A DNA stretch of 64,000 nt. It comes from Gilvimarinus sp. 2_MG-2023. Lineage in GTDB: Bacteria; Pseudomonadota; Gammaproteobacteria; Pseudomonadales; Cellvibrionaceae. Shown piece after piece: positions 18,372 through 59,642 of this stretch. Position 1 is the first letter of the stretch; each line of letters starts with the position of its first letter. The stretch spans positions 1-64,000 of the forward strand of contig NZ_JAUOQM010000012.1 of NCBI RefSeq assembly GCF_030547685.1. The letters are read 5' to 3'. The position numbers and the translations under genes are program-made. The notes under the pieces are model-generated. The model did no database searches, was not told the DNA's origin, and saw only the letters and a program-made list of their open reading frames with translations.

Positions 18372-18845
18372 GGGCGTAAGGCAGCACTAGCGGCGTAGAG
18401 TGAGTGGGCAAAATCAACGGCTCACTATACACAATTTATATGTGTTGGGAGGTCGCGAAAGGCAAGTATTTGTGAAATTTCCCGTGCCATCTGGCGCGTA
18501 CTTTAGGTGTATATGGCCGTATATAACAAAATGGGCAGAGATCTGAATACCCGATCCAGCAGTAATTTATGCATTAAAAAATCTATTTATATGCTTACAG
18601 GGTTTAAAAAACGGGCGTGAGTCACGTTTTGCCGTGTTGGCTTTGAGTTGGCGGGTGCTGCGTGGTACACCTTCTAACCAGCTTGACAACGTTGTCTCTG
18701 TTGTTGGGCCGAAATCTACCAATCCGCTGATAGGGCACGGGACTGACGATGGTATATCGATAGGGAGCAGACAAGCGGGGTTGAAACAACAATAAAACTT
18801 TGCCCGGGCGCGTGCGCACTGGGAGAGTACAGCGAGGAGATTAGA
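18372..18845. promoter_or_regulatory. Divergent intergenic region upstream of the exporter and chitinase
   Basis: This 474-base region has no credible gene. It holds the GACAACGTTGTC operator (18685-18696) about 150 bases before the chitinase start and is AT-rich between about 18420 and 18610. A GAGGAG-like ribosome binding site precedes the chitinase ATG. Confidence 0.6.
18685..18696. promoter_or_regulatory. NagR-like operator upstream of the chitinase
   Basis: A perfect 12-bp palindrome GACAACGTTGTC, preceded by AGCTT. The same 17-base string AGCTTGACAACGTTGTC occurs upstream of the TonB receptor at 33304-33320. From memory it matches the core of the NagR (LacI family) consensus described for Shewanella and relatives. 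The overlapping TTGACA could be a -35 box, but no good -10 is visible 16-18 bases on. Confidence 0.7.
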
Positions 18846-20432
18846 ATGAAAAAGACATTATTGGCTGGAACCGGACTGCTTGGCGCGGTGATTTGCGCCA
18901 GTCCCGTTCAGGCGTACGATTGCTCCAGTTTATCCACTTGGGACGCGGCTACTGCTTATCTCGGAGGTGATCAGGTTGAAGACTCGGGTTTCGCTTACGA
19001 GGCAAAATGGTGGACTCGCGGTGATCAACCGGCACAGAGCTCGGGTGCGTGGGATGAGTGGCTCGGCTTAGGTGCTTGCGACGGCTCACCCGCAAGCAGC
19101 TCAAGTTCATCCAGCAGTTCCTCCCTGTCATCGAGCAGCAGCTCCTCCAGCTCTAGTAGCTCGCAGGCCCCGGTGGGGGATTGCTCTTCCCCGGTATACA
19201 GCGCCGGAAGTGCCTATTCGGTAGGTCAGCTGGTGCAAAATGCCGGTAGCGAATATCGCTGTGATATTAGCGGTTGGTGTTCATCCAGTGCCGACTGGGC
19301 CTATGCCCCGGGTACGGGGGCCCACTGGAGCGATGCCTGGACCGAGCAACGCTCTTGCAGCGCGGATTCATCTAGTTCTAACAGTTCGTCGTCGAGCTCT
19401 AGCTCCAGTAATAGTTCCAGTTCGTCCAGCTCTAGTCCAGGTGGCGGTTACAGCGGTAACTTCCCCGATCATGCTTTGGTCGGGTATTGGCATAACTTTA
19501 TGAACGGTGCGGGCTGTCCAATTGCACTGTCAGAGATTCCGGATGCCTGGGATATTATCGATATCGCTTTTGCCGACAACGACCCGGCCAGCAATGGCAC
19601 GGTGCACTTTAATCTGTTCGACGGCTCCGGTACTAGCTGTCCCGGTTTGGATGCAACTCAATTCAAACAGGATATGGCGGCCATGCAGGCCGAAGGAAAA
19701 ATTTTCGTGCTGTCTCTGGGCGGCGCCGAGGGCACCATTACACTTAATACCGATTCGGATGAGGCGAACTTTGTGGCCAGCTTGACCGGCCTGATCAACG
19801 AGTGGGGGTTCGATGGTGTCGATATTGACCTGGAAAGTGGCTCGCAGCTGGTACACGGCTCGCAAATCCAAGCGCGCTTACCTGGGGCACTGCGTCAGAT
19901 TGATACCAATGTGGGCGGCATGGCGCTGACCATGGCACCGGAGCACCCATATGTGCAGGGTGGCTTGACCGCTTACTCCGGTGTTTGGGGAGCGTACTTA
20001 CCGATCATTGACCAAACGCGCGACTTGCTCGACCTGCTGCATGTGCAGCTTTACAACAATGGTGGATTGCAAACACCTTATGCTAATCAATCATACCCTG
20101 CCGGCTCGGTGGATATGATGGTGGCTTCGGCGCGGATGTTGATTGAAGGTTTCCAGACAGCCGGTTCTTTGTACTTTGAGGGGCTCGACCCGCAACAGGT
20201 GTCGCTGGGCTTGCCTTCCGGGCCTTCGTCAGCGGGTTCTGGTCTGGCCACCAATCAGGCCATTATCGATGCGCTCGATTGCATCACGGCTGGCACCGCT
20301 TGTGACTCGGTAAATGCGGGTGGGGTATATCCGGACTTCAGCGGGGTGATGACCTGGTCGATTAACTGGGATATTCACGACGGTTATATCTTCTCTGGCC
20401 CAATTGGCGACAAGGTGCATAGCTTGCCTTAA
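18846..20432 (+). CDS. Secreted GH18 chitinase with two carbohydrate-binding modules
   Basis: The 528-residue protein has a signal peptide cleaved after about residue 23 (ASPVQA). Two small aromatic-rich modules of the CBM5/12 type follow, at about 25-78 (with AYEAKWWTRGDQP) and 110-172 (with EYRCDISGW), each ahead of a serine-rich linker (about 80-107 and 174-200). The GH18 catalytic domain fills the rest. Its active site reads DGVDIDLE (D323, D326, D328, acid/base E330), so it should cut chitin with retention of configuration. Poly-Ser linkers are typical of Cellvibrionales carbohydrases. It is monocistronic, followed by a strong terminator, and probably controlled through the GACAACGTTGTC operator. 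Confidence 0.95.
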   Translation: MKKTLLAGTGLLGAVICASPVQAYDCSSLSTWDAATAYLGGDQVEDSGFAYEAKWWTRGDQPAQSSGAWDEWLGLGACDGSPASSSSSSSSSSLSSSSSSSSSSSSQAPVGDCSSPVYSAGSAYSVGQLVQNAGSEYRCDISGWCSSSADWAYAPGTGAHWSDAWTEQRSCSADSSSSNSSSSSSSSSNSSSSSSSSPGGGYSGNFPDHALVGYWHNFMNGAGCPIALSEIPDAWDIIDIAFADNDPASNGTVHFNLFDGSGTSCPGLDATQFKQDMAAMQAEGKIFVLSLGGAEGTITLNTDSDEANFVASLTGLINEWGFDGVDIDLESGSQLVHGSQIQARLPGALRQIDTNVGGMALTMAPEHPYVQGGLTAYSGVWGAYLPIIDQTRDLLDLLHVQLYNNGGLQTPYANQSYPAGSVDMMVASARMLIEGFQTAGSLYFEGLDPQQVSLGLPSGPSSAGSGLATNQAIIDALDCITAGTACDSVNAGGVYPDFSGVMTWSINWDIHDGYIFSGPIGDKVHSLP

Positions 20433-20459
20433 TCGCCGGGCTGATTCGATAGCGCAAAC

Positions 20460-20493
20460 AAAAAAGGCGCCCCATTGCTGGGGCGCCTTTTTT
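20460..20493. terminator. Bidirectional intrinsic terminator between chitinase and argS
   Basis: The 8-bp stem GGCGCCCC/GGGGCGCC with a six-base loop is flanked by six A and six T, so it can stop transcription from both convergent genes. Confidence 0.95.
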
Positions 20494-20513
20494 ACGTCTT
20501 GCCGGGCAACATA

Positions 20514-22247
20514 TTACATTTGCTCTGAGACTTCGATGCCCAGCATATCTAAGCCGGTTTCCAGTGTGCGGCTAACCGCGTGGCAAATACGCAGACGGCT
20601 GGCGCGCATCGCCGGATCTACATCCGACTTAAGAATCGGGCAGGCCTCGTAAAAGCGCATAAACAAGCTGGCGACATCGTATAAGTAGGTGCAGAGCACA
20701 TGGGGTAGGGCATCGTCGGCAACTTGCCCTAATACCTCGCCCAACTGCAACAACTTGATGGCGAGTGCTTTTTCTTGTTCTTGTGCAAGAACGATCTCGC
20801 CGCTGACCGCCACAGGTTCGATTTCTGCCTTGCGGAAAACACTGCGCACGCGGGTGTATGCGTACTGCAGGTAGGGCGCGGTATTGCCCTCAAAGCTCAA
20901 CATGGTGTCCCAGTTAAAGACATAATCGTTGGTGCGGGTTTTACACAAATCTGCGTATTTTACCGCGCCAATACCCACCTTGCGCGCGACATTGTCAGCA
21001 TCAGCCAGGTCTGGGTTTTTATCGGTAATGACTTTCGCGGCGCGTTCAATAGCTTCGTCCAGCAGAGCGGCCAGTTTAACCGTGCCCCCCGAGCGGGTTT
21101 TAAACGGCTTGCCGTCAGCGCCCATCATGGTGCCAAAGGCGTGGTGCTCAAGGCTCACATGCTCGTCGACAAAGCCCGCCTTGCGCGCCAAGGTAAACAC
21201 CTGCTGCATATGCAGGGACTGGCGAGCGTCAATAAAGTAGAGAATACGATCGGCGTGCAGCGTATTGGCGCGATAGCGAATAGCGGCTAAGTCGGTAGTG
21301 GCGTAGAGAAAACCACCGCCTTGCTTTTGCACAATCACCGGCGAGGGGTTGCCCTCTTTGTCGGCCAGTTCGGGCAGGAAAACCACTTGCGCGCCCTGAT
21401 CTTCCTGACATAAGCCCTGTGCTTGCAGCTCGCTAACCAGCGGTGCTAAATCGTCATTGTAAAAGCTTTCACCGCACACATCCTCATCGCTTAACGTTAC
21501 GTTGAGCTTGTTGTAAATGTCGGCGCTATGAGCGAGAGAAACACGCTTAAACGATTGCCACAACTCCAGTGTTTTGGCATCACCGGATTGCAGCCTTACT
21601 ACATAGTCGCGCGCCTTATCGGCGAACGCCTGCTCGCGGTCGAAATGCGCTTTGGCCTGCTGATAAAACACTTCCAAATCCGATAGCGCCATACTGGCGC
21701 TGTCGCTATCGGCCATTTGTTCTTCGAGTTCGGCGATCAGCATGCCGAACTGAGTGCCCCAGTCGCCCACGTGGTTCTGCCGAATGACCTTATGACCCAG
21801 GCGGCTGAGTATGCGTACCAGTGCGTCGCCAATAATCGACGAGCGCAGGTGGCCGACGTGCATCTCTTTGGCAAGGTTGGGGGATGAGTAATCCACTACA
21901 ACGGTTTGTGGTTCGGCGGCGGGGCGAATCGCCAGAGCCGGATCGCGCTCAGCGTTGCCCAGTTGCTCACTCAGCCAGGCCGGGTTGAGGTGAATGTTGA
22001 TAAAACCCGGGCCTGCGATCTCTACTTTATCCGCGATTGAGCCGAGCTCAAGCTCGTCTGTGATCTTACCGGCCAGCTCGCGCGGATTGGTGCCGACTTT
22101 CTTGGCCGCAGCCATGGCGCCATTGGCCTGATAATCGCCAAAACCGGCTTTTTTGGCCGGCGCCACCATGGGTTGGCACTCGGCGGGAATGCCGGCTGCG
22201 TTCATAGCGGACTTTACTTTTTCGCTCAGAAGTTCACGGATGTTCAT
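20514..22247 (-). CDS. argS: Arginyl-tRNA synthetase
   Basis: ArgS charges tRNA-Arg. The 577-residue class I enzyme has an N-terminal Arg-tRNA-synthetase domain (to about 90), the HIGH-type motif HVGHLRS and the degenerate KMSKS region ([11 protein letters not shown]) usual for this enzyme, then the anticodon-binding DALR domain. I chose ATG 22247 ([11 protein letters not shown]) over an upstream TTG at 22256. It is divergent from the enoyl-CoA hydratase gene. Confidence 0.97.
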
Positions 22248-22416
22248 AGGGCTCAAACAGTCAGATTAGAAAACCGTGAATTGTAGCATGCCGAGGCAGG
22301 CAGAGCCTGTGCTCAAAAGAAAATTACCGGTTTATCATCCGCCATACACAGGTAATCTCTCTGAGCTACACTTTACCCGAGTGTTACAAACGATAGTCAG
22401 TGAAAGAGGAGTCGCT

Positions 22417-23199
22417 ATGACAATGCCTTTTGAGGTGTCCGAACAGGTAAAGGCCAATATAATGGATGGCGTGTTGCGCTTGCAGCTTAACCGCCCACAA
22501 CAGAAAAATGCCCTGTCGCTGGCCATGTATCAATCCCTGGCCAATGCGTTGCAGTGGGCGGCTACGAGCGATAATGTGCGTGTGGTGTGTTTGGCAGGCT
22601 CCGAGGACAGCTTCACCGCTGGTAATGATTTGGCTGATTTTCTTCGGGCTGGGCAAGGTGGGCCGCCCGTATTGTCGAAAGAGCATCCGGTTATACAATT
22701 TATGCACTCCCTGCGTCACTTGCCGCAGCCGATTGTGGCCGAGGTTAATGGTATGGCTATTGGTATCGGCACCACCTTGCTGCTGCATTGTGATTTTGTG
22801 TATGCAGCCGATGACGCTTATTTTCAGTTGCCGTTTGCCCGCCTGGGGCTGTGCCCCGAATTTGCTTCCAGTGCATTGTTGGTGCGCCGGGTAGGGGAGG
22901 CTCGGGCCAAGGAAATGCTGTTGTTGGGCGAGGCAATTAGCGCTGGGCAGGCGCTGGGTTACGGTCTGCTCAACGGCGTGTTCCCGCGCGAGCGTCTCGG
23001 CACCGAGGTGGACAGTGTTTGTCAGACTCTCGCCCTGCGCCCCCCGCAAGCACTGCGCCGCAGTAAAGCCCTGATTAACCAGGTGGTGGGCTGGCCGGTG
23101 GATCGAGTTATTGAACGTGAACTCGAAGTGTTTAGCGAGTGTCTAGGAGGCGAAGAAGCCCAATTGATTATCAAACAAGCGACAGAGGAAAAAACATGA
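22417..23199 (+). CDS. Enoyl-CoA hydratase/isomerase family protein
   Basis: A 260-residue crotonase-fold protein. The CoA and oxyanion-hole segments are visible: EDSFTAGNDLADF and VNGMAIGIGTTLLLHCDFVYA. ATG 22417 is preceded by AGAGGAG; the frame is open further upstream to 22276, but that part has no conserved sequence. The acidic catalytic residues are not clear-cut, and the LPFARLGLCPEFASS segment suggests an isomerase-like member. The stop overlaps the following SDR gene (ATGA), so the pair probably acts together on acyl-CoA, perhaps unsaturated fatty acids. Confidence 0.88.
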   Translation: MTMPFEVSEQVKANIMDGVLRLQLNRPQQKNALSLAMYQSLANALQWAATSDNVRVVCLAGSEDSFTAGNDLADFLRAGQGGPPVLSKEHPVIQFMHSLRHLPQPIVAEVNGMAIGIGTTLLLHCDFVYAADDAYFQLPFARLGLCPEFASSALLVRRVGEARAKEMLLLGEAISAGQALGYGLLNGVFPRERLGTEVDSVCQTLALRPPQALRRSKALINQVVGWPVDRVIERELEVFSECLGGEEAQLIIKQATEEKT

Positions 23200-24014
23200 A
23201 TCTTAATGGCGATTTTTCGGGTAAAACCGTCTTGGTTGTGGGGGGTACCAGCGGTATTTGCCGCGCTGCAGCGGAGCGTTTTGCCGGGCTGGGGTGCAGT
23301 GTTTGCGTGATCAGCCGCTCGCAAGAAAAAATCGATGCCACTGTTGCCGCGTTGGCAGAGTTGGGCGCTCAGGACAGTTGTGGTTACAGCGTCGATGTGC
23401 GCAATGGTGAGGCTTTGCGCGAAGCGCTGCGGCAATTGCACGCGCGCTGGGGCGCCTTGGATATTGTGGTTTCCGGTGCGGCGGGTAACTTCCCAGCGCT
23501 TGCCAGTAACCTGTCCGATAATGGTTTTGCTGCGGTGGTAGACATTGATCTAAAAGGCACCTTTCATGTGATGAGCGCGATCTACCCCTATTTGCGCAAA
23601 CCCGGCGCCTCGGTCATTAATATTTCCGCGCCGCAAGCGCAGCTGGCGATGGCCGGGCAGGTGCATGTCTGTGCGGCTAAAGCTGGGGTGGATATGATTA
23701 CCCGCACATTGTGTATTGAATGGGGCGCTGAGGGAGTGCGGGTGAATTCGGTGATTCCGGGACCGGTAGAGGGAACCGAGGGCATGGAGCGCTTGGCTCC
23801 GGATGAAAAAATGCGAGGTAAAATTGCCGCTACCGTGCCATTACAACGTTTGGGGCGAGGCCGTGATATTGCCGATGCCTGCGTCTTTTTAAGTTCAGAT
23901 TTAGCCAGTTATATCAGCGGGGTGGTACTTCCTGTCGATGGAGGTTGGAGCTTGGGCGGAGCCGCCACTATTGGTACCGGCCTTGCGCAGATGTTGCAAC
24001 AACAGCAGCAATAA
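23196..24014 (+). CDS. SDR family oxidoreductase, 2,4-dienoyl-CoA reductase-like
   Basis: A 272-residue short-chain dehydrogenase with the nucleotide-binding motif GGTSGICRAAA and the VSGAAGNFPA strand corresponding to NNAG. The usual catalytic Tyr of YxxxK is replaced by Val (VCAAK), as in 2,4-dienoyl-CoA reductases of the DECR type, where the Tyr is also missing. Together with the coupled enoyl-CoA hydratase/isomerase gene this suggests a role in unsaturated fatty acid oxidation. The C-terminus ends in a run of glutamines. The first half also fits other SDRs, so the substrate is inferred. Confidence 0.8.
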   Translation: MNLNGDFSGKTVLVVGGTSGICRAAAERFAGLGCSVCVISRSQEKIDATVAALAELGAQDSCGYSVDVRNGEALREALRQLHARWGALDIVVSGAAGNFPALASNLSDNGFAAVVDIDLKGTFHVMSAIYPYLRKPGASVINISAPQAQLAMAGQVHVCAAKAGVDMITRTLCIEWGAEGVRVNSVIPGPVEGTEGMERLAPDEKMRGKIAATVPLQRLGRGRDIADACVFLSSDLASYISGVVLPVDGGWSLGGAATIGTGLAQMLQQQQQ

Positions 24015-24155
24015 AAGCATGTAGACACGGCATCTATTAGGCCCCAATTGCCCACAGGAATAACAAAGCCTAGGGGTTAATAACACAATGATCTACATGC
24101 CAAAAAAGCAGCTGCTATGCTTGTAGTAAGACAGAAGCATGGGGGGTATCCCGCT

Positions 24156-24398: not shown

Positions 24399-24418
24399 CG
24401 AGTTGCAGGCTAAGGGCG
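24390..24418. terminator. Ten-bp hairpin at the convergent gene ends
   Basis: CGCCCTTAGC (24390-24399) pairs perfectly with GCTAAGGGCG (24409-24418) over nine bases, and the left arm contains the stop codon of the 80-residue gene. No T-run follows on either strand, so it is either a weak terminator or an mRNA-end stabiliser for the converging transcripts. Confidence 0.5.
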
Positions 24419-33058: not shown

Positions 33059-33470
33059 GTCGTGTGCACAAATTCCCAGGGCCAAAATTGCTGGTGAAAG
33101 AGACGCACCAGAGCTACAGTGTAGCTTGTAGAAGCGGTTGTTTTAGAATAAATACAAACAAATCAACAGCTTACTTTTTATTCGAAAGCTAATGCCTGAG
33201 ACTCTTAATGGGGGCTGCTAGGTTACTAACAGTTAGATCTATGAATAATAACTTCTTGTATAGATATCACCCACTATAACGGCCAAGGATTTTTTTTCGC
33301 CAGAGCTTGACAACGTTGTCCATAAAGTAGTTATATTAACTATCACCTAAGAATATATTTTATGAAAGTTAGTAACAACGGTTAATCGAAAAAGGTGACG
33401 GAGCGAGGGGTTGTCCTGAAGTAGGGGCAAGCAAAGGTTTTAATAAAGAATAAAAGGAAGGGGCAATAAT
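33059..33470. promoter_or_regulatory. Control region upstream of the TonB receptor
   Basis: The 412-base AT-rich region has no credible gene. It contains the GACAACGTTGTC operator at 33309-33320 with an overlapping TTGACA (33307-33312) and a TATATT (33332-33337) 19 bases further on, a plausible sigma-70 promoter. AAGGAAGGGG before ATG 33471 is a strong ribosome binding site. Confidence 0.65.
33309..33320. promoter_or_regulatory. NagR-like operator overlapping a -35 box upstream of the TonB receptor
   Basis: A perfect palindrome GACAACGTTGTC, identical over 17 bases (33304-33320) to the chitinase-upstream site. Its first half is also the TTGACA -35 element, so binding would block RNA polymerase. 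The operator ends 150 bases before the receptor ATG. Confidence 0.75.
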
Positions 33471-36400
33471 ATGCAATTTCATAAGAAGTTACTCAGTCTG
33501 GCAGTGTGCGCAGCAACAGCGGGGGTAGTGCTGCCTGCATACGGGCAAGACGAGGCGGCCGAATCGGAAGACCTAATAGAAGAGGTTGTGGTTCGGGGTA
33601 TTCGGGTCAGTATTGAAAATGCGCAACAGCGCAAACGTTTTGCTGATACCGTCAAAGATGTCATCACCGCTACGGATATTGGTGCCTTACCAGACAAGTC
33701 GGTGACTGAGGCCCTACAGCGTGTGCCGGGCGTGACAATTGAACGCTTTGCCTCTTCCGATGACCCCAAACACTACGCCGATGAGGGGACAGGCGTGCTG
33801 GTACGCGGTTTGGATCGCGTTCGCTCCGAGGTTAACGGTCGCGATGCATTCAGTGCGAACCCCTATGGCGGTTTAAATTACGAAGACTTTCCGGCCGAAT
33901 TATTGTCAGCGGTGGAGGTGGTAAAGAACCAAACAGCTGACCTTATCTCTGGTGGTATTGCCGGTACGGTAAATTTGATTTCACGTAAGCCTTTCGATTC
34001 CGAAGAGCAGATGATTTCATTTAACGCTAAAGTTAATTACGGTGATTTTCGCGAAGAGGCGACGCCGTCTTTCTCAGCACTTTTTTCCGATACCTGGGAA
34101 ACAGAGGCCGGTAAATTTGGCTTTCTGTTGGCTGGCTCTTTTTCCGAGTATCAAACCCGTGGTGATGGTATTGGTTTAGGTAATTTTCATTCCCGAGGAA
34201 TCGATGATACCCCGCCGGCCAGTTGGGATCACTGGGGTGGTATGGTATCCGAGCCGGGTAAGGTAGCCGGTTGGTGGGACAGCCCGTGCATGGATTGGAA
34301 TGGTAATAACGCTTGGACGTGGTTTCCTGAATGTTCTGGCCCGACCGCAAATCTAATCACCGAAGACGAAGCGCATCAATCCCCTTACGATGGGCCAGGC
34401 TTGGAAGGACAGCCTGAGGGCACAACTTGGTATGCCCCAGCGCAATATCACATTAGCACCGCTCAAAATGATCGTGAGCGCACAGGTATTACTACCTCGT
34501 TACAGTGGGCAAATACCGATGAAACAATAGTTGCTACCTTAGAGCATATTAATTCCGAGGCAACTCTAGAGTGGGATGAACGGCGGATTAGCCAAGCCGC
34601 TCAAGGTTTTAAATCTTGGATGGGGCGCAGCCATAACTGGGAAGGGGACCCTGAAAACGGTCACCCACTTACTATCGATGATGAAGGGTTTTTAACCTCC
34701 GGTATTGGTCTTGGGGTCGAGCCCGAAGTCCCTTTGATGTATATCACGCGCTGGAACTATCAGGAAAATACGGTTGAGGATACCTCATTCAATTTGGCTT
34801 TAACCCCGAATGATCGATTGTCAATTGAGCTTGATTACCAGCACATTGAATCGGAGCAATTAGTTCACAACTACAGTTTGTCTGCGCGTACAGCCGGCAG
34901 CGTGGTAAATCAGTTGCTGCCTTTTTACTTGGATCTGCGATCTGACCTCCCAACCATTGAATATTTAAACGACGATCTGGATCTGTATGGTTGGATCGAA
35001 GAGGGCGTACACCCCGCCGTATTTATGGGGTCGGGCATGCAGCAAGAAGAGCTTAATACGGCGGAATCAGATAGCTTTAAAGTTGACGCCACTTATGAGT
35101 TTGATGGTGTGTTCTCTGCAATTAAAGCCGGTGCGTATTATTCCGATAAGGAGTTAGTGGTGCGCAATACCGAATACTCGGCATGGCAGCCTATCTCAAC
35201 CCCTTGGGTGGCCGAGCAACGTGTAGAGTCGGCATCCGCACTGCGCCCCGACTTGTATGATCAGATAGATCTTTCGGATTATTATCACGGCGATGTGTTG
35301 CAAGGCGATGTGCAATCGTTCTTATTCCCTGATTTAGACTTGGTGAAAAACTACGCCAATACACTGCGCAATGCATGCGACGAGGGTTGGTCAACTCAGG
35401 GCGACGAGGCGGGTAATGCGGCCGATGGTAGTGGCGGTTGCGCTCTACCTTATTCAGATATGGAAGGTCGTATTGATGGCGCATTTGCGGCGCATGATAT
35501 CAGTAAGGCAAAGGAAGAGCGTGCCGAATTCTATCTGCGCGGTGATTTCGATTTTGACAGCGTCGGTATTCCGTTGAAGGGTAACTTGGGTCTGCGTTAT
35601 GTCAGTTATCAATTGGAATCCACCGGTTATCTGGTGCTGCCAGACAGCGCCAGTCGCGGCAGTGCTCAAACGGCTGAGTATCTAGAGGATGAATACAAAT
35701 CGATTTATGATTTGGCCAATGGTGAGTCTATGCAGAGCACCGTTGAGGGTACTGACTACGATACATTGTTGCCAAGTTTGAACTTAAGTTATGGTCTTAC
35801 CGAAGACATCGTGATTCGCTTTGGTGCCTCTAAAGGTCTGTACTTTCCAAGCCTCGTGGATACTCGTAACCGTGCAATTGTCGAGTTAACAGTTGACCCC
35901 TATTTGCAAGATGAGTCTCTACCGCAAGACAGCGAAACCAATCCGGTGCTTGGCATTGATAGTGTCGCGCTCAACGCCGATGCGAGTAACCCGTACCTGG
36001 AGCCGGAAGAATCCATTAACTTGGATTTGACCACAGAATGGTATTTTGCACCTGCGGGCTCATTGACAGTTGGGGTCTTTCATAAAGAGTTAGATAATAT
36101 TATTCGCAGTCGTCAGTTTGATATGAATATTGAACACGCTGGAACACTTCATGCGGTGTCGGCTTACGGTCCTGCCAATACAGGCTCGGGTAATATCCGC
36201 GGTGTGGAATTTTCTTACTCACAATTTTATGATTTCCTGCCGGGTGTGCTAAGCGGTTTGGGGCTGCAGTTTAACTATACCTATATTGATCAAGAGGGTT
36301 TAGAAGATCCAACCAGCGCACCGCCACAAAGCAGTCGTTTTGATGCCGGAGGCACCCCTGAAGATGCAGCCACGGTTGATGAGCGCAATACATTCCGTGT

Positions 36401-36752
36401 TTTCAGTGGGCTGCCATTACAAGGTTACTCCGATGAAAATTTAAATATTGTCGGTATGTATGAGTATGAAGATATATCTTTTAGATTGGCCTACACATGG
36501 CGCTCTGAGTATCTGTTAACGACTCGCGAATCGGAAGATTTTGCGCCGGTATACACAGAGGACTCTGGCATGATGGATGCCAGCTTGTACTATACAATTA
36601 ACGACAATATCAAAGTGGGTATTGAAGGCAGTAACTTGTTAGGAGAAGAGACCAAAACACAATACCAATTCAATCAGCAAGGCGATAGAACTCAAGCCCT
36701 TAGTTTTACCACCGATCGTCGCTATGCACTGAGTGTCCGCGCGACTTTCTAA
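33471..36752 (+). CDS. TonB-dependent outer-membrane receptor, probable chitooligosaccharide/GlcNAc uptake
   Basis: The 1093-residue protein has a signal peptide ending near AYGQ, a TonB box-like region (EEVVVRGIR), a plug domain (about 45-170, with ADTVKDVITATDIGALPDKSVTEALQRVPGV) and a large beta-barrel ending in an aromatic (RATF). The size and the plug signature are those of the Xanthomonas/Caulobacter-type carbohydrate receptors. The shared operator with the chitinase suggests it takes up chitin fragments, similar in role to NagP of Shewanella; that is an inference. It is followed by a strong terminator and then the halogenase-like gene. Confidence 0.9.
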   Translation: MQFHKKLLSLAVCAATAGVVLPAYGQDEAAESEDLIEEVVVRGIRVSIENAQQRKRFADTVKDVITATDIGALPDKSVTEALQRVPGVTIERFASSDDPKHYADEGTGVLVRGLDRVRSEVNGRDAFSANPYGGLNYEDFPAELLSAVEVVKNQTADLISGGIAGTVNLISRKPFDSEEQMISFNAKVNYGDFREEATPSFSALFSDTWETEAGKFGFLLAGSFSEYQTRGDGIGLGNFHSRGIDDTPPASWDHWGGMVSEPGKVAGWWDSPCMDWNGNNAWTWFPECSGPTANLITEDEAHQSPYDGPGLEGQPEGTTWYAPAQYHISTAQNDRERTGITTSLQWANTDETIVATLEHINSEATLEWDERRISQAAQGFKSWMGRSHNWEGDPENGHPLTIDDEGFLTSGIGLGVEPEVPLMYITRWNYQENTVEDTSFNLALTPNDRLSIELDYQHIESEQLVHNYSLSARTAGSVVNQLLPFYLDLRSDLPTIEYLNDDLDLYGWIEEGVHPAVFMGSGMQQEELNTAESDSFKVDATYEFDGVFSAIKAGAYYSDKELVVRNTEYSAWQPISTPWVAEQRVESASALRPDLYDQIDLSDYYHGDVLQGDVQSFLFPDLDLVKNYANTLRNACDEGWSTQGDEAGNAADGSGGCALPYSDMEGRIDGAFAAHDISKAKEERAEFYLRGDFDFDSVGIPLKGNLGLRYVSYQLESTGYLVLPDSASRGSAQTAEYLEDEYKSIYDLANGESMQSTVEGTDYDTLLPSLNLSYGLTEDIVIRFGASKGLYFPSLVDTRNRAIVELTVDPYLQDESLPQDSETNPVLGIDSVALNADASNPYLEPEESINLDLTTEWYFAPAGSLTVGVFHKELDNIIRSRQFDMNIEHAGTLHAVSAYGPANTGSGNIRGVEFSYSQFYDFLPGVLSGLGLQFNYTYIDQEGLEDPTSAPPQSSRFDAGGTPEDAATVDERNTFRVFSGLPLQGYSDENLNIVGMYEYEDISFRLAYTWRSEYLLTTRESEDFAPVYTEDSGMMDASLYYTINDNIKVGIEGSNLLGEETKTQYQFNQQGDRTQALSFTTDRRYALSVRATF

Positions 36753-36809: not shown

Positions 36810-36874
36810 ATTGTCGGCAGGTTAATGTATGCTCGTAATCAGGTGGTGATTGACGAGCTTGAGGTAAAGTGGTT

Positions 36875-38407
36875 ATGCAAAACAAAAAAATTGCAATCGT
36901 GGGCGGTGGTACGGCCGGCTGGTTGGCGGCAAACCATATGGGGCTAGAGCTTGGCACCCGAGAGGGCGTCAGTATTACGGTGATCGAATCTCCCGATATA
37001 CCCACTATCGGTGTCGGCGAGGGAACTGTCGCCGTGATTCGCAATAGCCTTGAGAAGCTGGGTATTAGTGAAGCGCAATTATTATTGCGCTGCCAAACGA
37101 CGTTAAAGATGGGGATTAAGTTCGTGGATTGGCTGGCGCCTAAATCAGAGCGCACCGATAACTTTTTTTATCACCCCTTTGACCCACCGTACCCTGCCGG
37201 GGTCGATGCCACCGATTACTGGCTTGATAAAGGCAAAACTGGATTTTCACAATTAACCAAGTCCTACCGACTGGCTGAAAAGAACTTAAGCCCCAAGTTA
37301 AGGGGGGCAAAACCCTACCGGGGTGAGGTAGGTTATGCCTATCACTTTGATGCGAGAAAATTTGCCGAATTGTTGGCCGAGAATGCCAGAAAACGATTCG
37401 GTATTCACTACCAACAGCAAACTGTTACCTCGGCCAACTTGGATGAGAAAGGCTATATTCAATCGCTTAATTATGCTGATGGAAATTGTGAAAGTTTTGA
37501 TTTTTACGTCGACTGCAGTGGCTTTTCATCGCTCATTATCGGCCAAACTTTGGAAGTGCCCTGGGTGGATAAAAGCGAGCAAATATTGCCGGACCAAGCG
37601 CTCGCCCTGCAAGTGCCTACCGCACCCGAGGCGGATCTCGCTCCATACACGACTGCCACAGCACACAGCGCAGGCTGGATTTGGGATATACCACTCACCA
37701 CAAGGCGCGGAACTGGGTTTGTTTATTCCTCGTCGCATATGACTGAGCAGCAAGCCGTCGCAGATTTTGCTCGCTATCACGGTGAAGACTTTAACGAAAA
37801 TTACCTTCGAAAAATTCCGATGAAAACCGGTTACCGTCGATCTTTTTGGCAAAAAAATTGTGTGGCGCTAGGGTTGGCGCAAGGCTTCGTCGAGCCACTG
37901 GAAGCAACGTCTATAGTGATTACCGATTACTGCGCCGCCCTGATCGCGCGATTGTTGCCAGAGCGGCAAGAAGACATGCCAGCACGCTCACAACAAGTTA
38001 ATCGGCGAGTGGAGTACATTTGGGAGCGCGTGATTGACTTTATCCAGCTGCACTATTGCATTTCAGATCGCAGAGACAGCAACTTTTGGCGCGACTGCAC
38101 CGACCGGGCGGTCATGTCGGATGTCTTGCAAGAAAGATTGGCGTTGTGGGAAACCTATACCCCAATGCTGTACGACTTTTCGGCTGATATCGAATTTTTT
38201 CAACGCGAAAGCTATCTTTGCATACTTTATGGCATGGAATATTCTACACGCCCAGTGGGGCGTCTCAGTGACTACGATGTCTTCGTGGAGTCTAAAATAA
38301 GGGAGCATGCCCACACGGTCGATCAACTGGAGCGCTCATTAATTGGTCAGCGTCAATGGCTTAATGAGCTATATGCATACGCCGCTCATGCCCAAAAAAC
38401 ATCGTAA
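36875..38407 (+). CDS. Tryptophan halogenase-like flavin-dependent protein
   Basis: The 510-residue protein belongs to the flavin-dependent tryptophan halogenase family. It has an FAD-binding GGGTAGWLAA near the N-terminus, a conserved lysine region (LKMGIKFVDW) and the halogenase signature GWIWDIP (WxWxIP). Members of this family often sit beside TonB receptors in carbohydrate loci of Xanthomonas, Caulobacter and marine gammaproteobacteria, where no halogenated product is known and the function is unclear. ATG 36875 was chosen; GTG 36869 is in frame just upstream. It follows the receptor after a terminator and is 122 bases away. Confidence 0.88.
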   Translation: MQNKKIAIVGGGTAGWLAANHMGLELGTREGVSITVIESPDIPTIGVGEGTVAVIRNSLEKLGISEAQLLLRCQTTLKMGIKFVDWLAPKSERTDNFFYHPFDPPYPAGVDATDYWLDKGKTGFSQLTKSYRLAEKNLSPKLRGAKPYRGEVGYAYHFDARKFAELLAENARKRFGIHYQQQTVTSANLDEKGYIQSLNYADGNCESFDFYVDCSGFSSLIIGQTLEVPWVDKSEQILPDQALALQVPTAPEADLAPYTTATAHSAGWIWDIPLTTRRGTGFVYSSSHMTEQQAVADFARYHGEDFNENYLRKIPMKTGYRRSFWQKNCVALGLAQGFVEPLEATSIVITDYCAALIARLLPERQEDMPARSQQVNRRVEYIWERVIDFIQLHYCISDRRDSNFWRDCTDRAVMSDVLQERLALWETYTPMLYDFSADIEFFQRESYLCILYGMEYSTRPVGRLSDYDVFVESKIREHAHTVDQLERSLIGQRQWLNELYAYAAHAQKTS

Positions 38408-53942: not shown

Positions 53943-53949
53943 TTTCTCC

Positions 53950-54693
53950 GTGCGCATACTACCGCTCATTGCTACTTTGCTGCTCTTTTCGTTCGGAGTC
54001 TCAATGGCACAAACCAGCAGCCCAGAGATGCAATTGCACATTGCAGCCGGTTCAAACGATACGAAGACGATAGGCGTGCTGATCAAACAGGGTGTTTTGA
54101 TTGATGCTGTAATCAATGGTAGCGTAACTCCGCTTATGACCGCAGCAAACAATGGAGCAACATCAGCCGTTGAAGATTTAATAAATCGTGGCGCAGATGT
54201 GAATCGGAAAACAAAAGCTCAGTGGACGGCACTTCTTTACGCAGCTGAGTATGGCAATGGCCCTGCATTAGAAGTCCTTCTGAAAAACGGAGCGGATATA
54301 AACGCCGTGCTCGCTGGCGGTGAAAGCGCACTTGTTCAAGCCTGTTTCAGAAAACGCCACGAGGTTGCGAACAAGCTAGTACAAGCAGGAATTAGTGTAA
54401 ATTTGACTTCGAAAATTGGACTTACCGGCGGCATTGTTTGCGCCGATGCAGGTTACGTAGATGTCCTTGGGAATCTAGCTGCACGTGGAGAAAACTTAAA
54501 TGCTTCGAATGCGTACGGCGAAACTGCACTAATTCGTGCAGCAATACAAGGGCACACTCATGTGGTTAAGTTTCTGGTTTCCAAGGGCGTGAACGTCAAT
54601 TTAAAAGATAACCAAGGGAAGACTGCCGCCATGTGGGCAGTCGAGAATGGGCACACCGATGTTGTTAAAGCACTTCAACCAAAAACCCAATAA
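53950..54693 (+). CDS. Secreted ankyrin-repeat protein (integron cassette gene)
   Basis: A 247-residue protein starting at GTG 53950, eight bases after the attC core. It has a signal peptide (cleavage near SMAQ, residue 20) followed by about six ankyrin repeats: GSVTPLMTAANNGATSAVEDLI, AQWTALLYAAEYGNG, GGESALVQACFRKRHEV, GYVDVLGNLAARG, YGETALIRAAIQGHTHVV and QGKTAAMWAVENGHTDVV. Ankyrin repeats bind proteins; the partner is unknown. Periplasmic or exported location is inferred from the signal peptide. It is the second gene of the cassette island. Confidence 0.82.
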   Translation: MRILPLIATLLLFSFGVSMAQTSSPEMQLHIAAGSNDTKTIGVLIKQGVLIDAVINGSVTPLMTAANNGATSAVEDLINRGADVNRKTKAQWTALLYAAEYGNGPALEVLLKNGADINAVLAGGESALVQACFRKRHEVANKLVQAGISVNLTSKIGLTGGIVCADAGYVDVLGNLAARGENLNASNAYGETALIRAAIQGHTHVVKFLVSKGVNVNLKDNQGKTAAMWAVENGHTDVVKALQPKTQ

Positions 54694-54762
54694 TTCAATC
54701 CAGGGGGCTTGCGTCAATCTGCCTCGAAGATTTCCGGTCATCCTTGATCTCAAGCGTTATGT
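54694..54762 (+). mobile_element. Degenerate attC-like site after the ankyrin gene
   Basis: GTTATGT (54756-54762) resembles the right core (GTTRRRY with one mismatch). GCTTG-CG-TCAA on the left pairs with TTGATCTCAAGC on the right. The left core is not recognisable, so the site may be partly decayed. The next gene starts 13 bases later. Confidence 0.45.
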
Positions 54763-54775
54763 CACAGAATAGAAT

Positions 54776-55252
54776 ATGAAGCTTAGAAAATTTACTTTAG
54801 AAGATGCTGCTAGAGTGGCTTTGTTAGCTGGAGATGAATCGGTATCTGAATGGACTGCTAATATCCCTTTTCCGTATAGTGAGACGGATGCGATCAACTG
54901 GATTACAGCAACTTCAAATAACCCTGATCGCCATCCGTTCGCCATTGAAGTTTGTAACGAGATTGTGGGGTGTGTTTCCTACTGGCCTCATGATAGAAAG
55001 TCTGTAGAGGTTGGGTATTGGGTTGGCAAAAGTTACTGGGGAAAAGGTTTTTGTACTACCGCACTCCAAACTCTTATTAACTTAGAGTCTTTTCCAGTAA
55101 ATGTTAATATTGTCGCTAAAGTAATGGCCAAAAATATAGCATCAGAGAAGGTATTGGTAAAATGTGGTTTTTCCTTGTCTGGGCAGTGTGCAATCAAAAA
55201 GCATGGCAATGAAATTAGCGGCAAGTTATTTATTAAGCAGTCAAGGACATGA
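54776..55252 (+). CDS. GNAT N-acetyltransferase, RimJ/RimL type (integron cassette gene)
   Basis: A 158-residue acetyltransferase of the Acetyltransf_3 kind: MKLRKFTLEDAARV, the central EVGYWVGKSYWGKGFCTTALQTLI (with the CoA-binding R/Q-x2-G-x-G/A-like loop KSYWGKGF) and the KNIASEKVLVKCGF motif. The acceptor is unknown; related enzymes acetylate protein termini or antibiotics. It starts shortly after the attC-like site and is AT-richer than the flanking chromosomal genes. Confidence 0.85.
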   Translation: MKLRKFTLEDAARVALLAGDESVSEWTANIPFPYSETDAINWITATSNNPDRHPFAIEVCNEIVGCVSYWPHDRKSVEVGYWVGKSYWGKGFCTTALQTLINLESFPVNVNIVAKVMAKNIASEKVLVKCGFSLSGQCAIKKHGNEISGKLFIKQSRT

Positions 55253-55301
55253 CAAAAACAGTTAAGCAAGGTGTGCCGCGCGTATGCTGCAAGCGTTAGG
55301 C
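55253..55301 (+). mobile_element. Possible attC remnant after the GNAT gene
   Basis: A full GTTRRRY core (GTTAGGC, 55295-55301) follows AAGC, and another GTTRRRY string (GTTAAGC) lies at 55261-55267. The element would be short and the inverted symmetry is poor, so it is a weak call. Confidence 0.4.
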
Positions 55302-55456
55302 AACCAAACTCCTCCCAAACAAGTAGCGGCAGTCGAAGGGTGTAGTGAGTCCTAGAAAAGGGTTATATATTTTCAGGTATTGCTGCTCCCTTCGAGAGCT
55401 GGGGCGCGGATTATTGAACAGCTTCCAGGTTTTGAACGCTCTCTTTCAGGCTCGTA

Positions 55457-56383
55457 TTACAATTTCCCCATCGCTTTAATATGCGCTACTGCGCTGCGCC
55501 CTAATGCGGGTAGGTCGTAGCCGCCTTCCAGCATGGAGACTATGCCAAGGCAGAAGTCGTGATTATCCACATAGGCGCGCAATTCGGTGGTGACCCAGGC
55601 GTAGTCGGCTTCGGTTAGGCTGACGGAGGACATGTCGTCCAGCAGGTGGCCGTCAAAGCCGGCAGAAATCAATAATAGCTGCGGTTGAAATTGCTCCAGC
55701 GCGGGTAGCCAATAATGTTTTACCGCCTGGCGGAAGTCTTCACCTTTGGCGGTAGCGGCTAAGGGGGCGTTGACGATATGGCCGGGCTGGTTGATAAGTT
55801 CGGTGTTGGGGTAAAAGGGGTGCTGGAAGGTGGAGCAAAACAGAACGCGGGGTTCCTGTAAAAAAATATCCAGTGTGCCGTTGCCTTGGTGGACGTCAAA
55901 ATCCAAAATAGCAACTCGCTCCAGCCCATGGTGGTCCAGTGCGTATTGAGCGGCCACGGCGATGTTGTTGTAAATACAAAAACCCATAGCGCGGTGGCGC
56001 TCGGCGTGGTGCCCCGGCGGGCGTACATTGCAAAATACGCCCTTGGCTTTTCCGGTAAGTACAAGGTCGACCGCCTGCACGCCACTGCCTGCCGCGTGGC
56101 GGGCCGCTAGCAGTGTTTTAGGGCTCATCCAGACATCGTTATCAAATACCCGAATACCGTTTGAGGGCGGCAATGACTTGAGTGAGGCCAAGTAGTCGGC
56201 ATCGTGTACGGCTTGCAATTGAGCGTCCGTGACTTCTTGCGCATCCCGCTCATTCACCACAAAATCCAGCCCACTGGCAATCATTTGGTTGCGAATAGCG
56301 TCTATCCGTTCGGGGCACTCGGGGTGACCTTCGGGGGCCAAGTGTTGCTGGCAGCTGGGGTGGCTAATGATTACAACGGTCAT
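55457..56383 (-). CDS. Histone deacetylase family protein (class II-like)
   Basis: A 308-residue zinc amidohydrolase of the HDAC/acetoin-utilisation fold. Catalytic and zinc-binding residues are visible in RPPGHHAERHRAMGFCIYNN (tandem His), DFDVHQGNGTLDIF and SAGFDGHLLD. Substrates in bacteria may be acetyl-lysine or acetylpolyamines. It begins 36 bases after nagX on the same strand, so it may belong to the nag transcript. It ends next to the cassette island. Confidence 0.92.
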   Translation of the reverse strand: MTVVIISHPSCQQHLAPEGHPECPERIDAIRNQMIASGLDFVVNERDAQEVTDAQLQAVHDADYLASLKSLPPSNGIRVFDNDVWMSPKTLLAARHAAGSGVQAVDLVLTGKAKGVFCNVRPPGHHAERHRAMGFCIYNNIAVAAQYALDHHGLERVAILDFDVHQGNGTLDIFLQEPRVLFCSTFQHPFYPNTELINQPGHIVNAPLAATAKGEDFRQAVKHYWLPALEQFQPQLLLISAGFDGHLLDDMSSVSLTEADYAWVTTELRAYVDNHDFCLGIVSMLEGGYDLPALGRSAVAHIKAMGKL

Positions 56384-56419
56384 AAGTTATTATTGTCGGC
56401 TATAGGTATTTATTTTGGG

Positions 56420-57625
56420 TTACAGTTTCAATTTAACACCCATTTTACTCATAATGGCGGCTATCCACATTATCACAAGGGCAAAAAAGGCGGACCAGAA
56501 AATACCGGCGGGGCCACTGTCAAAAATTGCGGGGCGGTAATTTATACCCGCCAGTTCAACCGCTGCCAGCAATATAAAGGGAAGTATATAAACCAACAGT
56601 GGGTTGGCTGCCGCCGGGGCGAAGAATTGGCACCAGCGGGTATGTTTTTTGACTTCGACGATATAGTGAGTAACCGTAAAAATCAGGGTGCAGAAAAAAA
56701 TACTAAACAGCGCCCAGGTCGGGGTCGCCCATATTTTTGAAATCGGGCTCACGGGCCAGATGGCGAGGGCCGCTATACCACTGCACAGTATAAGCATCAT
56801 GACATAGCCCCGACGATGAGTCACTAGCGCGTTGTGGTAAAAAAGCGTGGCCAGTATTGCCCCCGCTAAAACGATGGCGGTGTGGGTATTGTTGCGGTTA
56901 TTTTCTACCAATAATTGTAAGGCCGAGCCTTCAAATTCCCGGGTGCCATTGAGTAATAAATAAAGGCCTAAAAAGCCCAGGGCAGCCAGCGTTAAAAAGG
57001 CGATTTGAGCGTGGGCTTTGTCGATTTGCAGCGCGCCTAAGTAGACGATACCTGCCATTAGGTAGGCCCAGCCGATCAGCCCTAAAATACCCCACCATTG
57101 GGTCGTCATGCCCGTGTTGGCTTTGCCTTGATATAAATACCAAAGGGTGACCAGTAGCGCGGCGCCGAGTGTGCGTAACCCTATAGGGATGACAGCAGGC
57201 CAGTGGCTCGGGTATTGGCACCAGAGCAACAGCACCGCGCCGTACATCAGCAGGGTCCATAAATGAATAGCAATAGGCATGGTGTAGGGGTCATACCCAC
57301 TTAGGGTATTCACCATAAACACACCGATAATAATAAGGCTAATGCTGCGCAGGGCAATATGACCAAACAGTTGGCGCAGGCTGTCGCCTTTGTGCAAACG
57401 GGCCGCACAGGCAAAAGGAATCGACATGCCGACAATAAACAAGAAGGCGGGAAACACCAAATCTACAAAAGTCATGCCGTTGGCATCGGCGGCGAGATGT
57501 TTCATCCAGCCGGGGATGTCGGCAATGCCGGCCAGCTCGTTGACAAACACCATGGTTAAAATAGTGATACCGCGAAAAACATCGATCGCCAGTACGCGTT
57601 TGGCGGCAAGATCAGGTTGTTTCAT
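56420..57625 (-). CDS. nagX: NagX-type transmembrane protein (DUF5009/heparan-glucosaminide acetyltransferase-like)
   Basis: A 401-residue protein with about ten membrane segments and the opening RVLAIDVFRGITILTMVFVNELAG, the NagX signature. Family members include human HGSNAT, which acetylates glucosamine using cytosolic acetyl-CoA; NagX in Shewanella belongs to the GlcNAc pathway, its precise reaction being unclear. ATG 57625 is preceded by AGGAA; the frame is open to 57664. It follows nagB by 58 bases. Confidence 0.88.
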   Translation of the reverse strand: MKQPDLAAKRVLAIDVFRGITILTMVFVNELAGIADIPGWMKHLAADANGMTFVDLVFPAFLFIVGMSIPFACAARLHKGDSLRQLFGHIALRSISLIIIGVFMVNTLSGYDPYTMPIAIHLWTLLMYGAVLLLWCQYPSHWPAVIPIGLRTLGAALLVTLWYLYQGKANTGMTTQWWGILGLIGWAYLMAGIVYLGALQIDKAHAQIAFLTLAALGFLGLYLLLNGTREFEGSALQLLVENNRNNTHTAIVLAGAILATLFYHNALVTHRRGYVMMLILCSGIAALAIWPVSPISKIWATPTWALFSIFFCTLIFTVTHYIVEVKKHTRWCQFFAPAAANPLLVYILPFILLAAVELAGINYRPAIFDSGPAGIFWSAFFALVIMWIAAIMSKMGVKLKL

Positions 57626-57683
57626 TATTATTCCTGTTATAGCGTTTTTTCGGGCCCGCGCCATGCGCGGGCCGCGGTGGGCT

Positions 57684-58475
57684 TTACAGGCCCAGGCGTT
57701 CTTCCAGCTTTTGGTTTTCGACTTCGATGTGTTTGTAAAAGGCCTTGTCTTTTAATTTGGAGGCGGCGCCTTCGTCGACAATAATAATGGCATCTTTGTG
57801 CATTTGCAGGGCAGACGCGGGGCAGGCGGCGGTGAGTGGGCCTTCCACGGTCGCGGCAATAGCCTCTGCCTTGGCTTCGCCCGTGGCCAGTAACACCACT
57901 TTCTTGGATTCCAAAATCGTCCCGATACCCATGGTAATGGACAGATGTGGTTGGTATTCATCGTCTTTAAAAAAGCGTGAATTATCGTTAATGGTATCCA
58001 TGGTTAGCGTTTTCACACGGGTGCGTGAAGCCAGAGAGCTGGACGGCTCGTTAAAGCCAATATGGCCATTGCGCCCGATACCCAAGAGTTGAATGTCGAT
58101 ACCACCGGCGTTGCTGATGTCGTTTTCGTAATCGATACACGCGGCAATAGGGTCGTCGGCGTTGCCGGGCGGAACCTGCGTATTGCTTTTGTCGATATCG
58201 ACATGGTCAAACAAGTGCTCATTCATAAAATGGCGATAGCTTTGTGGGTGCTCGCCATCCAGCCCTAAGTATTCGTCTAAGTTAAAGCTGGTTGCCTTGG
58301 CAAAAGACAGTTCATTGGCTTTATTTAAAGCAATCAGTTCTTTGTAAAGAGCAACAGGCGTGGAGCCGGTGGCTAAACCCAGAACCGAGTTGGGTTTTTT
58401 CTGCAGTTGTTTTTTAAAAATATTGGCGCCGTAGGCGGCAACCGATGCGGCGTCTTCTAAGATGATAACTTTCAT
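57684..58475 (-). CDS. nagB: Glucosamine-6-phosphate deaminase
   Basis: NagB converts glucosamine-6-phosphate into fructose-6-phosphate and ammonia. The 263-residue protein has the phosphate-binding [14 protein letters not shown], the catalytic NLDEYLGL and the ring-opening His in [13 protein letters not shown]. Length is as in E. coli (266). It lies 15 bases after nagA in the same operon. Confidence 0.96.
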
Positions 58476-58490
58476 GATTGCTCCGGCAAA

Positions 58491-59642
58491 TCAGTGTTGT
58501 TGGTAGTCACCGGCCACCCAGGTAGCCGTAACGTTAAAGTCGTCGGTAAAGTGCACTAAATCTGCTCGGTAGTGCGGATCTATGCGGCCCAGTGTTTGAT
58601 TGAGTTTCATATATTCAGCGGGGTACAAAGAGGCCATCCGCAAGCTTTCACTTAAGGAAATGCCAACATCGCGATGGGCAATACGCACCGCATCGATCAT
58701 GCCGATGGCACTGCCAGCCAGCCGGCCTTCGGCGTTTACCAGAGCGCCGTTGTGCTCGAAAATCTCTTCGCCGTAAATGGTGAACGATTTTTGTTCGCTG
58801 CCTACCGTGGACATTGCATCGGTCACCAGGTATAGCTTGCCTAAGGGCTTGGCGTTGAGGGCGACTCTGACCGAACCGGGGTGTACATGGTGGTTGTCGC
58901 AAATAATGCCGCACCATGTGGTGTCGCTTTCGAGTGCTGCCCCCACCACGCCGGGTTCGCGCCCGCTTTGTGGGCGCATTGCGTTAAATAAGTGGGTAAA
59001 GCCCGTTAAGCCGTCAGCAATGGCCGCTACCACGTCTTCGTAATGGGCATTGGTATGGCCGGCGGCGACGAAGATGCCCGCCTGACACAGCTGTCTCACT
59101 TGGCCGCTGGCGGCGTGCTCGGGGGCCAGGGTGAGCATTACTTTGAATCCCTCAATGGCGGTCAGCCATTGCATATCTTCCTGCTCGATACCGCGGATGT
59201 ACTTGGCGTTGTGCGCACCGCGCTTGTCCATATCGAAAAAAGGACCTTCAATATGAATCCCTAAAATACCATTCATGCCCGCGTTGATGGCGTCGGATAC
59301 GGCTTTCACTCCGGCCTGATGATTGGGGCGTGTATCGCTGATAAGTGTAGGGAGCATACTGGTAGTACCGGTAGGGCGGTGACCGTCTAGCATGGTTTGC
59401 AGGGCGCTGACGCTGGGGTCATTGGTGAAAAATGCACCGCCACCGCCATTGACTTGTAGGTCAATAAAGCCGGGGGCGAGAATGCCACCTGCAAGGGGGA
59501 TGATCTCCGCATCAGGATACTGACGGACAACGTTGTCATTTTCGGGTAATGAAATAACCTCAGTGCCTTCGATAACCACAGCCCGATTGTCGAGAAATTG
59601 ATCACCGGTAAATATACGCGCGCCCACAAGAGCTTGTTTCAT
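58491..59642 (-). CDS. nagA: N-acetylglucosamine-6-phosphate deacetylase
   Basis: NagA removes acetate from GlcNAc-6-phosphate. The 383-residue amidohydrolase has PGFIDLQVNGGGG, GIHIEGPFF, the metal-binding HTNAHYED and HLFNAM, and the catalytic Asp in VTDAM. The start at 59642 gives normal N-terminal sequence (RIFTGDQFLDNRAVVIEG). A NagR-like operator lies inside the gene at codons 36-39. It is the first gene of nagA-nagB-nagX-HDAC. The kinase, transporter and regulator are not in the window. Confidence 0.97.
   Translation of the reverse strand: MKQALVGARIFTGDQFLDNRAVVIEGTEVISLPENDNVVRQYPDAEIIPLAGGILAPGFIDLQVNGGGGAFFTNDPSVSALQTMLDGHRPTGTTSMLPTLISDTRPNHQAGVKAVSDAINAGMNGILGIHIEGPFFDMDKRGAHNAKYIRGIEQEDMQWLTAIEGFKVMLTLAPEHAASGQVRQLCQAGIFVAAGHTNAHYEDVVAAIADGLTGFTHLFNAMRPQSGREPGVVGAALESDTTWCGIICDNHHVHPGSVRVALNAKPLGKLYLVTDAMSTVGSEQKSFTIYGEEIFEHNGALVNAEGRLAGSAIGMIDAVRIAHRDVGISLSESLRMASLYPAEYMKLNQTLGRIDPHYRADLVHFTDDFNVTATWVAGDYQQH
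59526..59537. promoter_or_regulatory. NagR-like operator inside nagA
   Basis: The same perfect palindrome GACAACGTTGTC as at the chitinase and TonB receptor, here within codons 36-39 of nagA (residues near DNVV). On the coding strand it reads AATGACAACGTTGTCCGT, closest of the three to the longer NagR consensus I recall. It lies about 155 bases downstream of the inferred transcription start and could act as a roadblock. Confidence 0.6.

Follow-up and report, generated by a model that had tools for sequence, protein, structure and literature searches.

A predicted NagR operator within the nagA coding sequence of Gilvimarinus and a putative chitin regulon that takes in acs in one clade

The first 64,000 nucleotides of contig NZ_JAUOQM010000012.1 from Gilvimarinus sp. 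2_MG-2023 (hereafter the window) carry the 12-base palindrome GACAACGTTGTC at three places, one of which lies inside nagA, encoding the N-acetylglucosamine-6-phosphate deacetylase. Comparison with related genomes makes it highly probable that GACAACGTTGTC is the operator of the LacI-family repressor NagR, in a scheme that comprises chitin and N-acetylglucosamine (GlcNAc) targets throughout the genome, occlusion of the -35 element at some promoters, a transcriptional roadblock in nagA, a constraint on the NagA peptide and the recruitment of acs, the acetyl-CoA synthetase gene. Somewhat favoured is the more specific proposal of a genus-wide, dual-purpose code, in which the roadblock site would dictate six residues of NagA in the interest of regulation rather than catalysis, together with the joining of acs to the chitin regulon in one clade to recycle acetate. 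The features of the window on which this argument is built are as follows.

18685..18696, predicted NagR operator upstream of the GH18 chitinase gene; its left edge is spanned by TTGACA (18683-18688)
18846..20432, + strand, GH18 chitinase with a CBM5/12 module (Pfam PF02839 and PF00704, both above cut-off)
33309..33320, predicted NagR operator upstream of the TonB-dependent receptor gene; TTGACA at 33307-33312
33471..36752, + strand, TonB-dependent receptor (TIGR01782, 563 bits against a cut-off of 310)
59526..59537, predicted NagR operator inside nagA, at codons 36-39, GAC AAC GTT GTC (D N V V)
59696..59724, - strand, predicted nagA promoter: TTGCAA at 59724-59719, a 17-base spacer and GATAAT at 59701-59696
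58491..59642, - strand, nagA, N-acetylglucosamine-6-phosphate deacetylase (TIGR00221, 321 bits against a cut-off of 226)
57684..58475, - strand, nagB, glucosamine-6-phosphate deaminase (TIGR00502 and NF001684 above cut-off), 15 bases downstream of nagA

The palindrome and its candidate repressor

A scan of the window found exactly the three copies that an earlier note on this DNA had reported (18685-18696, 33309-33320 and 59526-59537) and no others. Their placements upstream of the chitinase gene, upstream of the receptor gene and inside nagA were as the note had described them, the first two copies do share 17 bases (AGCTTGACAACGTTGTC), and its expectation of about 0.004 copies per 64 kb under a uniform model is arithmetically right. 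The genome-wide scan that it had proposed found 12 exact copies in 3.76 Mb versus one for the reversed motif; the window is contig 23 of this genome, and the remaining nine copies are located on contigs 6 (four), 8, 33, 50 (two) and 57. With the reversed-motif control, one copy per whole genome, as the yardstick, the Poisson probability is about 8e-7 for at least three exact copies in 64 kb and about 8e-10 for at least 12 in the genome, and chance palindromes were rejected as an explanation. The excess is confined to the exact 12-mer and does not extend to its one-mismatch neighbourhood, which holds eight sites versus 23 for the reversed control. The regulon had been given an extent of 41 kb; since exact sites are spread over six contigs, a local cluster of that size was rejected, and the putative regulon is genome-wide.

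A candidate for the LacI-family nagR gene, whose absence would have spoken against a regulon, was located outside the window, on contig 6 (120721-121731, 336 amino acids, PF00356 above cut-off). It adjoins nagK and a NagX-like gene and lies within 14 kb of four operators; its closest named relatives, among the 80 nagR loci kept, are from Gilvimarinus. The distribution of the palindrome follows that of this protein. Among 120 genomes of the family, at least three sites occur in 49 of the 50 that encode a NagR of at least 60% identity versus none of the 70 that do not (24 with a best match of 50-59% identity, and 46 whose best match is below 50% or that have no match at E 1e-60). The 50 positive genomes average 9.40 sites (range 2-17) versus 1.58 for the control, while the 70 others hold zero to two sites each, with about 0.3 exact copies per genome. 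Of the 80 named nagR loci, 37 contain the motif, with 78 occurrences in total versus one for the control; it accompanies the recognition helix VSFKTVSRV[IV]N in 27 of 28 loci and VSIKTVSRV in 10 of 52, although both the number of sites and the type of helix reflect phylogeny in addition to function, and the events are not independent. Together, the candidate gene, the fitting targets described below and the co-occurrence across 120 genomes support the idea, already put forward in the earlier note, that one repressor links chitin cleavage, uptake and GlcNAc-6-phosphate breakdown. The core of GACAACGTTGTC may resemble the NagR consensus of Shewanella, as the earlier note had proposed; a text search of the open-licence literature for ACAACGTTGT found no paper about NagR by title.

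It is very unlikely that a different LacI-family paralogue, or several of them, binds the palindrome in place of NagR. The genome does contain nine LacI-family genes, and the helix of the C46 paralogue is close (VSMKTVSRVVN), but the 24 genomes with a best match of 50-59% identity average only 0.33 sites, site counts track the close NagR, and the contig-6 nagR adjoins the nagK promoter, which is doubly marked by the palindrome.

The loci with the VSIKTVSRV helix (52 of the 80, within L081-L141, many of them from Rheinheimera) lack the 12-mer in 42 cases, and their NagR may read a different operator. When 40 nagR loci lacking the 12-mer were searched for another palindrome in its place, none stood out clearly: AATGCCGGCATT was present in 9 of 40 and GACAGCGCTGTC, a weak candidate for the VSIKTVSRV loci, in 5 of 40.

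The operator inside nagA

In all eight Gilvimarinus nagA genes, the operator occupies the same codons (offset 105), as part of an invariant 18-base stretch, GAAAATGACAACGTTGTC (minus strand 59543-59526), in which GAAAAT precedes the 12-mer and which encodes ENDNVV. An alternative that we consider unlikely is that this copy is a chance match, or that ENDNVV is kept for protein reasons, only the intergenic copies being operators. Exact copies do occur at the background rate given above even in genomes without a close NagR, and of the invariant NagA residues outside the block, 22 of 212 (about 10%) use a single codon in all eight species anyway. However, the identity of all six codons at one offset speaks against it, as does the variability of the surrounding protein: none of the seven residues before the block and none of the ten alignment columns after it are invariant among the eight species, and a three-residue indel follows it. 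Furthermore, none of the 20 aligned NagA proteins of other genera contains ENDNVV (the alignment covers 28 of the 30 nagA loci, eight of them from Gilvimarinus, with L166 and L167 left out). Not counting Met and Trp, 218 residues are invariant, and for 28 of them all eight species use one codon; six of these 28 form the ENDNVV block, whereas the second-longest run has three. Shuffling of the codon-identity labels, with the block itself kept in the pool, produced a run of at least six in 0.05% of trials and of at least four in 4.2%.

The alignment of NagA with a solved NagA begins at residue 4, hence the operator codons lie within the protein; at the position of ENDNVV, the best solved relative has a different sequence and a gap. 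The motif was scanned in all 30 nagA loci, including those from 22 of the 73 other-genus genomes with a nagA match. Among these 22, seven (L165-L171) have an operator about 55-100 bp before nagA, which is the usual position, 15 have none in the retrieved locus, and no site lies within the gene. The nagA copy is thus read as a conserved, predicted site within coding sequence and no accident. ENDNVV is conserved although the NagA sequence around it varies, and a constraint on the DNA appears to be the cause.

The predicted nagA promoter (TTGCAA/GATAAT, with a spacing of 17 in six species and 18 in one) lies upstream of the start codon, at a distance of 41-106 bp, in seven of the eight species. 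The operator centre would accordingly fall 139-204 bp into the predicted transcript, with no fixed helical phase among these seven species, and nagB follows nagA in all eight. No second operator with up to two mismatches was found between -600 and about +1300 around nagA in any of the eight species. Because the operator is alone, well downstream of the predicted promoter and at variable phase, it most likely acts as a roadblock to the elongating polymerase.

DNA looping between the nagA operator and another operator is an improbable substitute for the roadblock, though the least improbable of those weighed here. According to the available part of PMC10310618, LacI is able to form DNA loops, which reinforce a weak roadblock, and paired operators do exist at nagK. 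Looping was nevertheless rejected as the main explanation at nagA, since no partner with up to two mismatches lies nearby in the eight species; sites with three mismatches occur in four of the eight, at unmatched places, the nearest other exact copy within the window lies at a distance of 26 kb, and the spacing between promoter and operator keeps no helical phase. It is likewise doubtful that the operator controls an internal or antisense promoter rather than the main nagA transcript. Overlap of the operator with TTGACA is common at the other targets (37 of 59), but no conserved -10-like element was seen by eye on either side of the nagA operator. The roadblock is thus preferred for nagA. A search of the open-licence literature for an intragenic nagA or NagR operator, also in combination with Gilvimarinus, found no report of one by title among the papers listed, and such reports may be in print elsewhere.

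Upstream of nagA, the element GGTCAAC-N-GGCCTTACCA occurs about 120-210 bp before the gene in five of the eight Gilvimarinus species (L143-L147) and is possibly the site of a second regulator. GGTCAAC alone is found in two others, and neither element is present within 1.4 kb in the genome of the window. In L147 (genome G081), a tandem expansion of GCAGAAC separates the predicted promoter from the nagA start codon.

Targets, promoter layout and acs

Outside the window, the nagK promoter carries two operators, 29 bp apart (L006:4086 and 4115), one operator lies before a second TonB receptor gene, one lies between the GH20 hexosaminidase and chemoreceptor genes, and single operators precede the genes for a GH18-PKD chitinase, a CBM5/12 protein, nagP and acs. 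Eleven of the 12 sites in the genome are therefore at fitting targets (chitin or GlcNAc genes, receptors and acs), the TonB receptors and the chemoreceptor being counted by family and not by tested substrate, so that the many copies in unrelated coding sequence that would argue against a regulon are not the case. The twelfth site (G000:C8:17475; L007:9475), on contig 8, lies where a 592-amino-acid protein of unknown function begins, with a hisI-like gene about 65 bp away. None of the 77 sites examined in sister species is at a matching gene, and this copy may be due to chance. The open reading frames were called mechanically, and in the genome of the window the 5' ends of such frames overlap the GH20, CBM and contig-8 sites; since sister operators lie before the GH20 and CBM genes, those two starts are taken as too early. 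The nagA copy is the one site deep within a gene.

In six sister species, 74 of the 77 sites examined (out of 78) are at targets of the same kinds, with L210, L241 and L242 as exceptions; from the seventh, G081, four of nine sites were covered (two at nagK, nagA and acs). GH19 chitinases, an AA10 lytic polysaccharide monooxygenase (LPMO) and YdjC-family proteins carry the site in the sisters but not in the genome of the window. The core targets nagK (NF046058), nagA and nagB score above their profile cut-offs, while nagP reaches 510 bits with NF046060, below the cut-off of 625. The same operator thus marks the core targets nagK, nagP and nagA/nagB and the auxiliary TonB receptor, chemoreceptor, hexosaminidase and chitin-binding protein. 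The paired nagK operators are 37 bp apart in seven sister species versus 29 bp here.

In the window, the operators lie 149 bp before the GH18 start codon and 150 bp before that of the TonB receptor, where a -10-like TTATAT (33331-33336) follows TTGACA after 18 bases. Among 59 sites oriented to their target, TT precedes the operator and forms TTGACA in 37, including all 18 TonB-receptor and all six nagP sites; the -10 scores are modest, with at least four matches at spacer 18 in 15 of the 37. Where present, this layout fits repression through blocked binding of the polymerase. Since TTGACA is formed at only 37 of the 59 oriented sites, occlusion of the -35 element cannot explain all targets. 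A similar GH18 gene (79-84% identity) in G004, G054 and G066 also has the operator upstream, without the TT of TTGACA. The PF00704 match of the GH18 protein in the window is narrow (32.8 bits versus a cut-off of 29.6).

The TonB receptor of the window is probably an outer-membrane transporter, with GlcNAc or chitooligosaccharides as its putative substrate. Genes of the tryptophan-halogenase family were observed near operator-bearing TonB receptors twice, in the window and at L006:5381-6976, and the gene in the window is a possible operon partner of the receptor. Two further genes follow nagA and nagB. The DUF5009 protein, which had no NCBIfam match in the profile search, is perhaps NagX-like, and a histone-deacetylase-family gene comes fourth in the tandem nagA-nagB-DUF5009.

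36869..38407, + strand, tryptophan-halogenase-family protein downstream of the TonB receptor (PF04820, E 1.2e-131)
56420..57664, - strand, DUF5009 membrane protein, third gene of the nagA tandem (PF16401)
55457..56383, - strand, histone-deacetylase-family protein (PF00850, E 1.6e-82)

NagA releases acetate and Acs converts acetate to acetyl-CoA, so the presence of acs in the regulon makes sense. Taking the best-matching acs copy of each genome, plus the second copy of G031, an exact operator was found upstream of acs in 28 of 47 NagR-positive versus none of 22 NagR-negative genomes examined. Among the NagR-positive genomes, it is present in 27 of 28 in the best-matching set and in 1 of 19 in the rest. 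As the exact site is missing in 19 of the 47, acs was rejected as a core NagR target and is regarded as a clade feature. Within the 28 site-bearing loci, the operator is followed by TGNTAAG at a distance of 22 bases in 26 loci and of 21 bases in one, and the intervening bases vary. Upstream of acs, TGNTAAG was found in 2 of 19 and 2 of 20 genes outside the best-matching set and in one of three site-less genes within it; the motif was first sought by a looser rule in the site-bearing set, and the search was repeated with one rule throughout. From this arrangement, the predicted operator and the putative promoter of acs are coupled in one clade. The acs gene of G012 has a one-mismatch site. In G031, a second acs shares its strand with the neighbouring nagB (473 bases away), nagA and nagR and has no operator directly before it; this is perhaps a different route to the same linkage. 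No report of acs as a NagR or NagC target was found in the open-licence literature, and one may exist in print.

Proposed mechanism and comparison with known systems

In the proposed mechanism, the NagR encoded on contig 6 would recognize GACAACGTTGTC and, in the absence of GlcNAc or a GlcNAc product, would occupy about a dozen operators. It would thereby shut the genes for the chitinases and hexosaminidase (GH18, GH20), the chitin-binding protein, the TonB receptors, the chemoreceptor, NagP and NagK, the nagA-nagB tandem and acs, and in sister species also GH19 chitinases and the AA10 LPMO. At the TonB-receptor and nagP promoters, the layout suggests that the operator over the -35 element would block polymerase binding. 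At nagA, the intragenic operator, for which no partner was found, would stop the elongating polymerase.

Several points weigh against this explanation. NagR binding and its effect on expression are predictions for this organism, and eight LacI-family genes other than nagR are present. Four of 89 sites (contig 8 of G000, L210, L241 and L242) lack a recognizable chitin or GlcNAc target, neither NagP nor the NagX-like protein of contig 6 reaches its NCBIfam cut-off, and 22 of the 59 oriented sites are without TTGACA. The predicted nagA promoter was not found in the eighth species (G004), and four of the eight species do have three-mismatch sites near nagA. The 19 NagR-positive genomes whose acs is without an exact site belong here as well, as does the acs site of G092, which is without TGNTAAG.

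If true, a stretch of NagA would be shaped by gene regulation rather than by catalysis. The intragenic operator would be a natural case of a transcription-factor site constraining a protein sequence, kept in seven sister species and lying outside the gene or missing in 22 other-genus loci. The acs link suggests that the repressor of one sugar is taking over the fate of its by-product acetate. As for the roadblock, purB is a known target of this kind for PurR.

A validated counterpart is NagR of Shewanella oneidensis. According to the available text of PMC3223726, the promoters of five targets were bound by this repressor in vitro, its complex with nagK DNA was dissolved by GlcNAc, and target mRNAs rose 5- to 50-fold when nagR was deleted. 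The spread and core of the NagR regulon are described in PMC5343134 and PMC2996990, as far as their available parts go. Judging from these portions of the three papers, the regulon of Shewanella (MR-1) resembles the present one in its LacI-family repressor and in its targets nagK, nagP, nagB-nagA, a TonB receptor, a chemoreceptor-hexosaminidase and a chitin-binding protein. Unlike in Shewanella, acs and GH18 carry the site here (in sisters also GH19, LPMO and YdjC-family genes), and nagAB form a separate tandem with the operator inside nagA. The likeness rests on family and targets, the 80 nagR loci kept containing no Shewanella record. In Xanthomonas, according to the available part of PMC5343134, NagR is similarly associated with TonB receptors and a GlcNAc kinase; nagAB and nagP belong there to NagQ, whereas here they share the palindrome of the other targets.

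Precedents for LacI-family roadblocks (PurR, GalR and CcpA) are given in the available part of PMC10310618. They share with the nagA operator a site downstream of the transcription start, which is a predicted one here, and a metabolite-responsive LacI-family protein. Unlike the roadblocks listed there, the site in nagA is kept across the species of one genus and falls on an invariant hexapeptide specific to that genus, and its roadblock role is inferred from sequence. The regulon itself is another case of the validated NagR kind, while the intragenic, apparently peptide-fixing nagA operator and the acs link set it apart as a variant.

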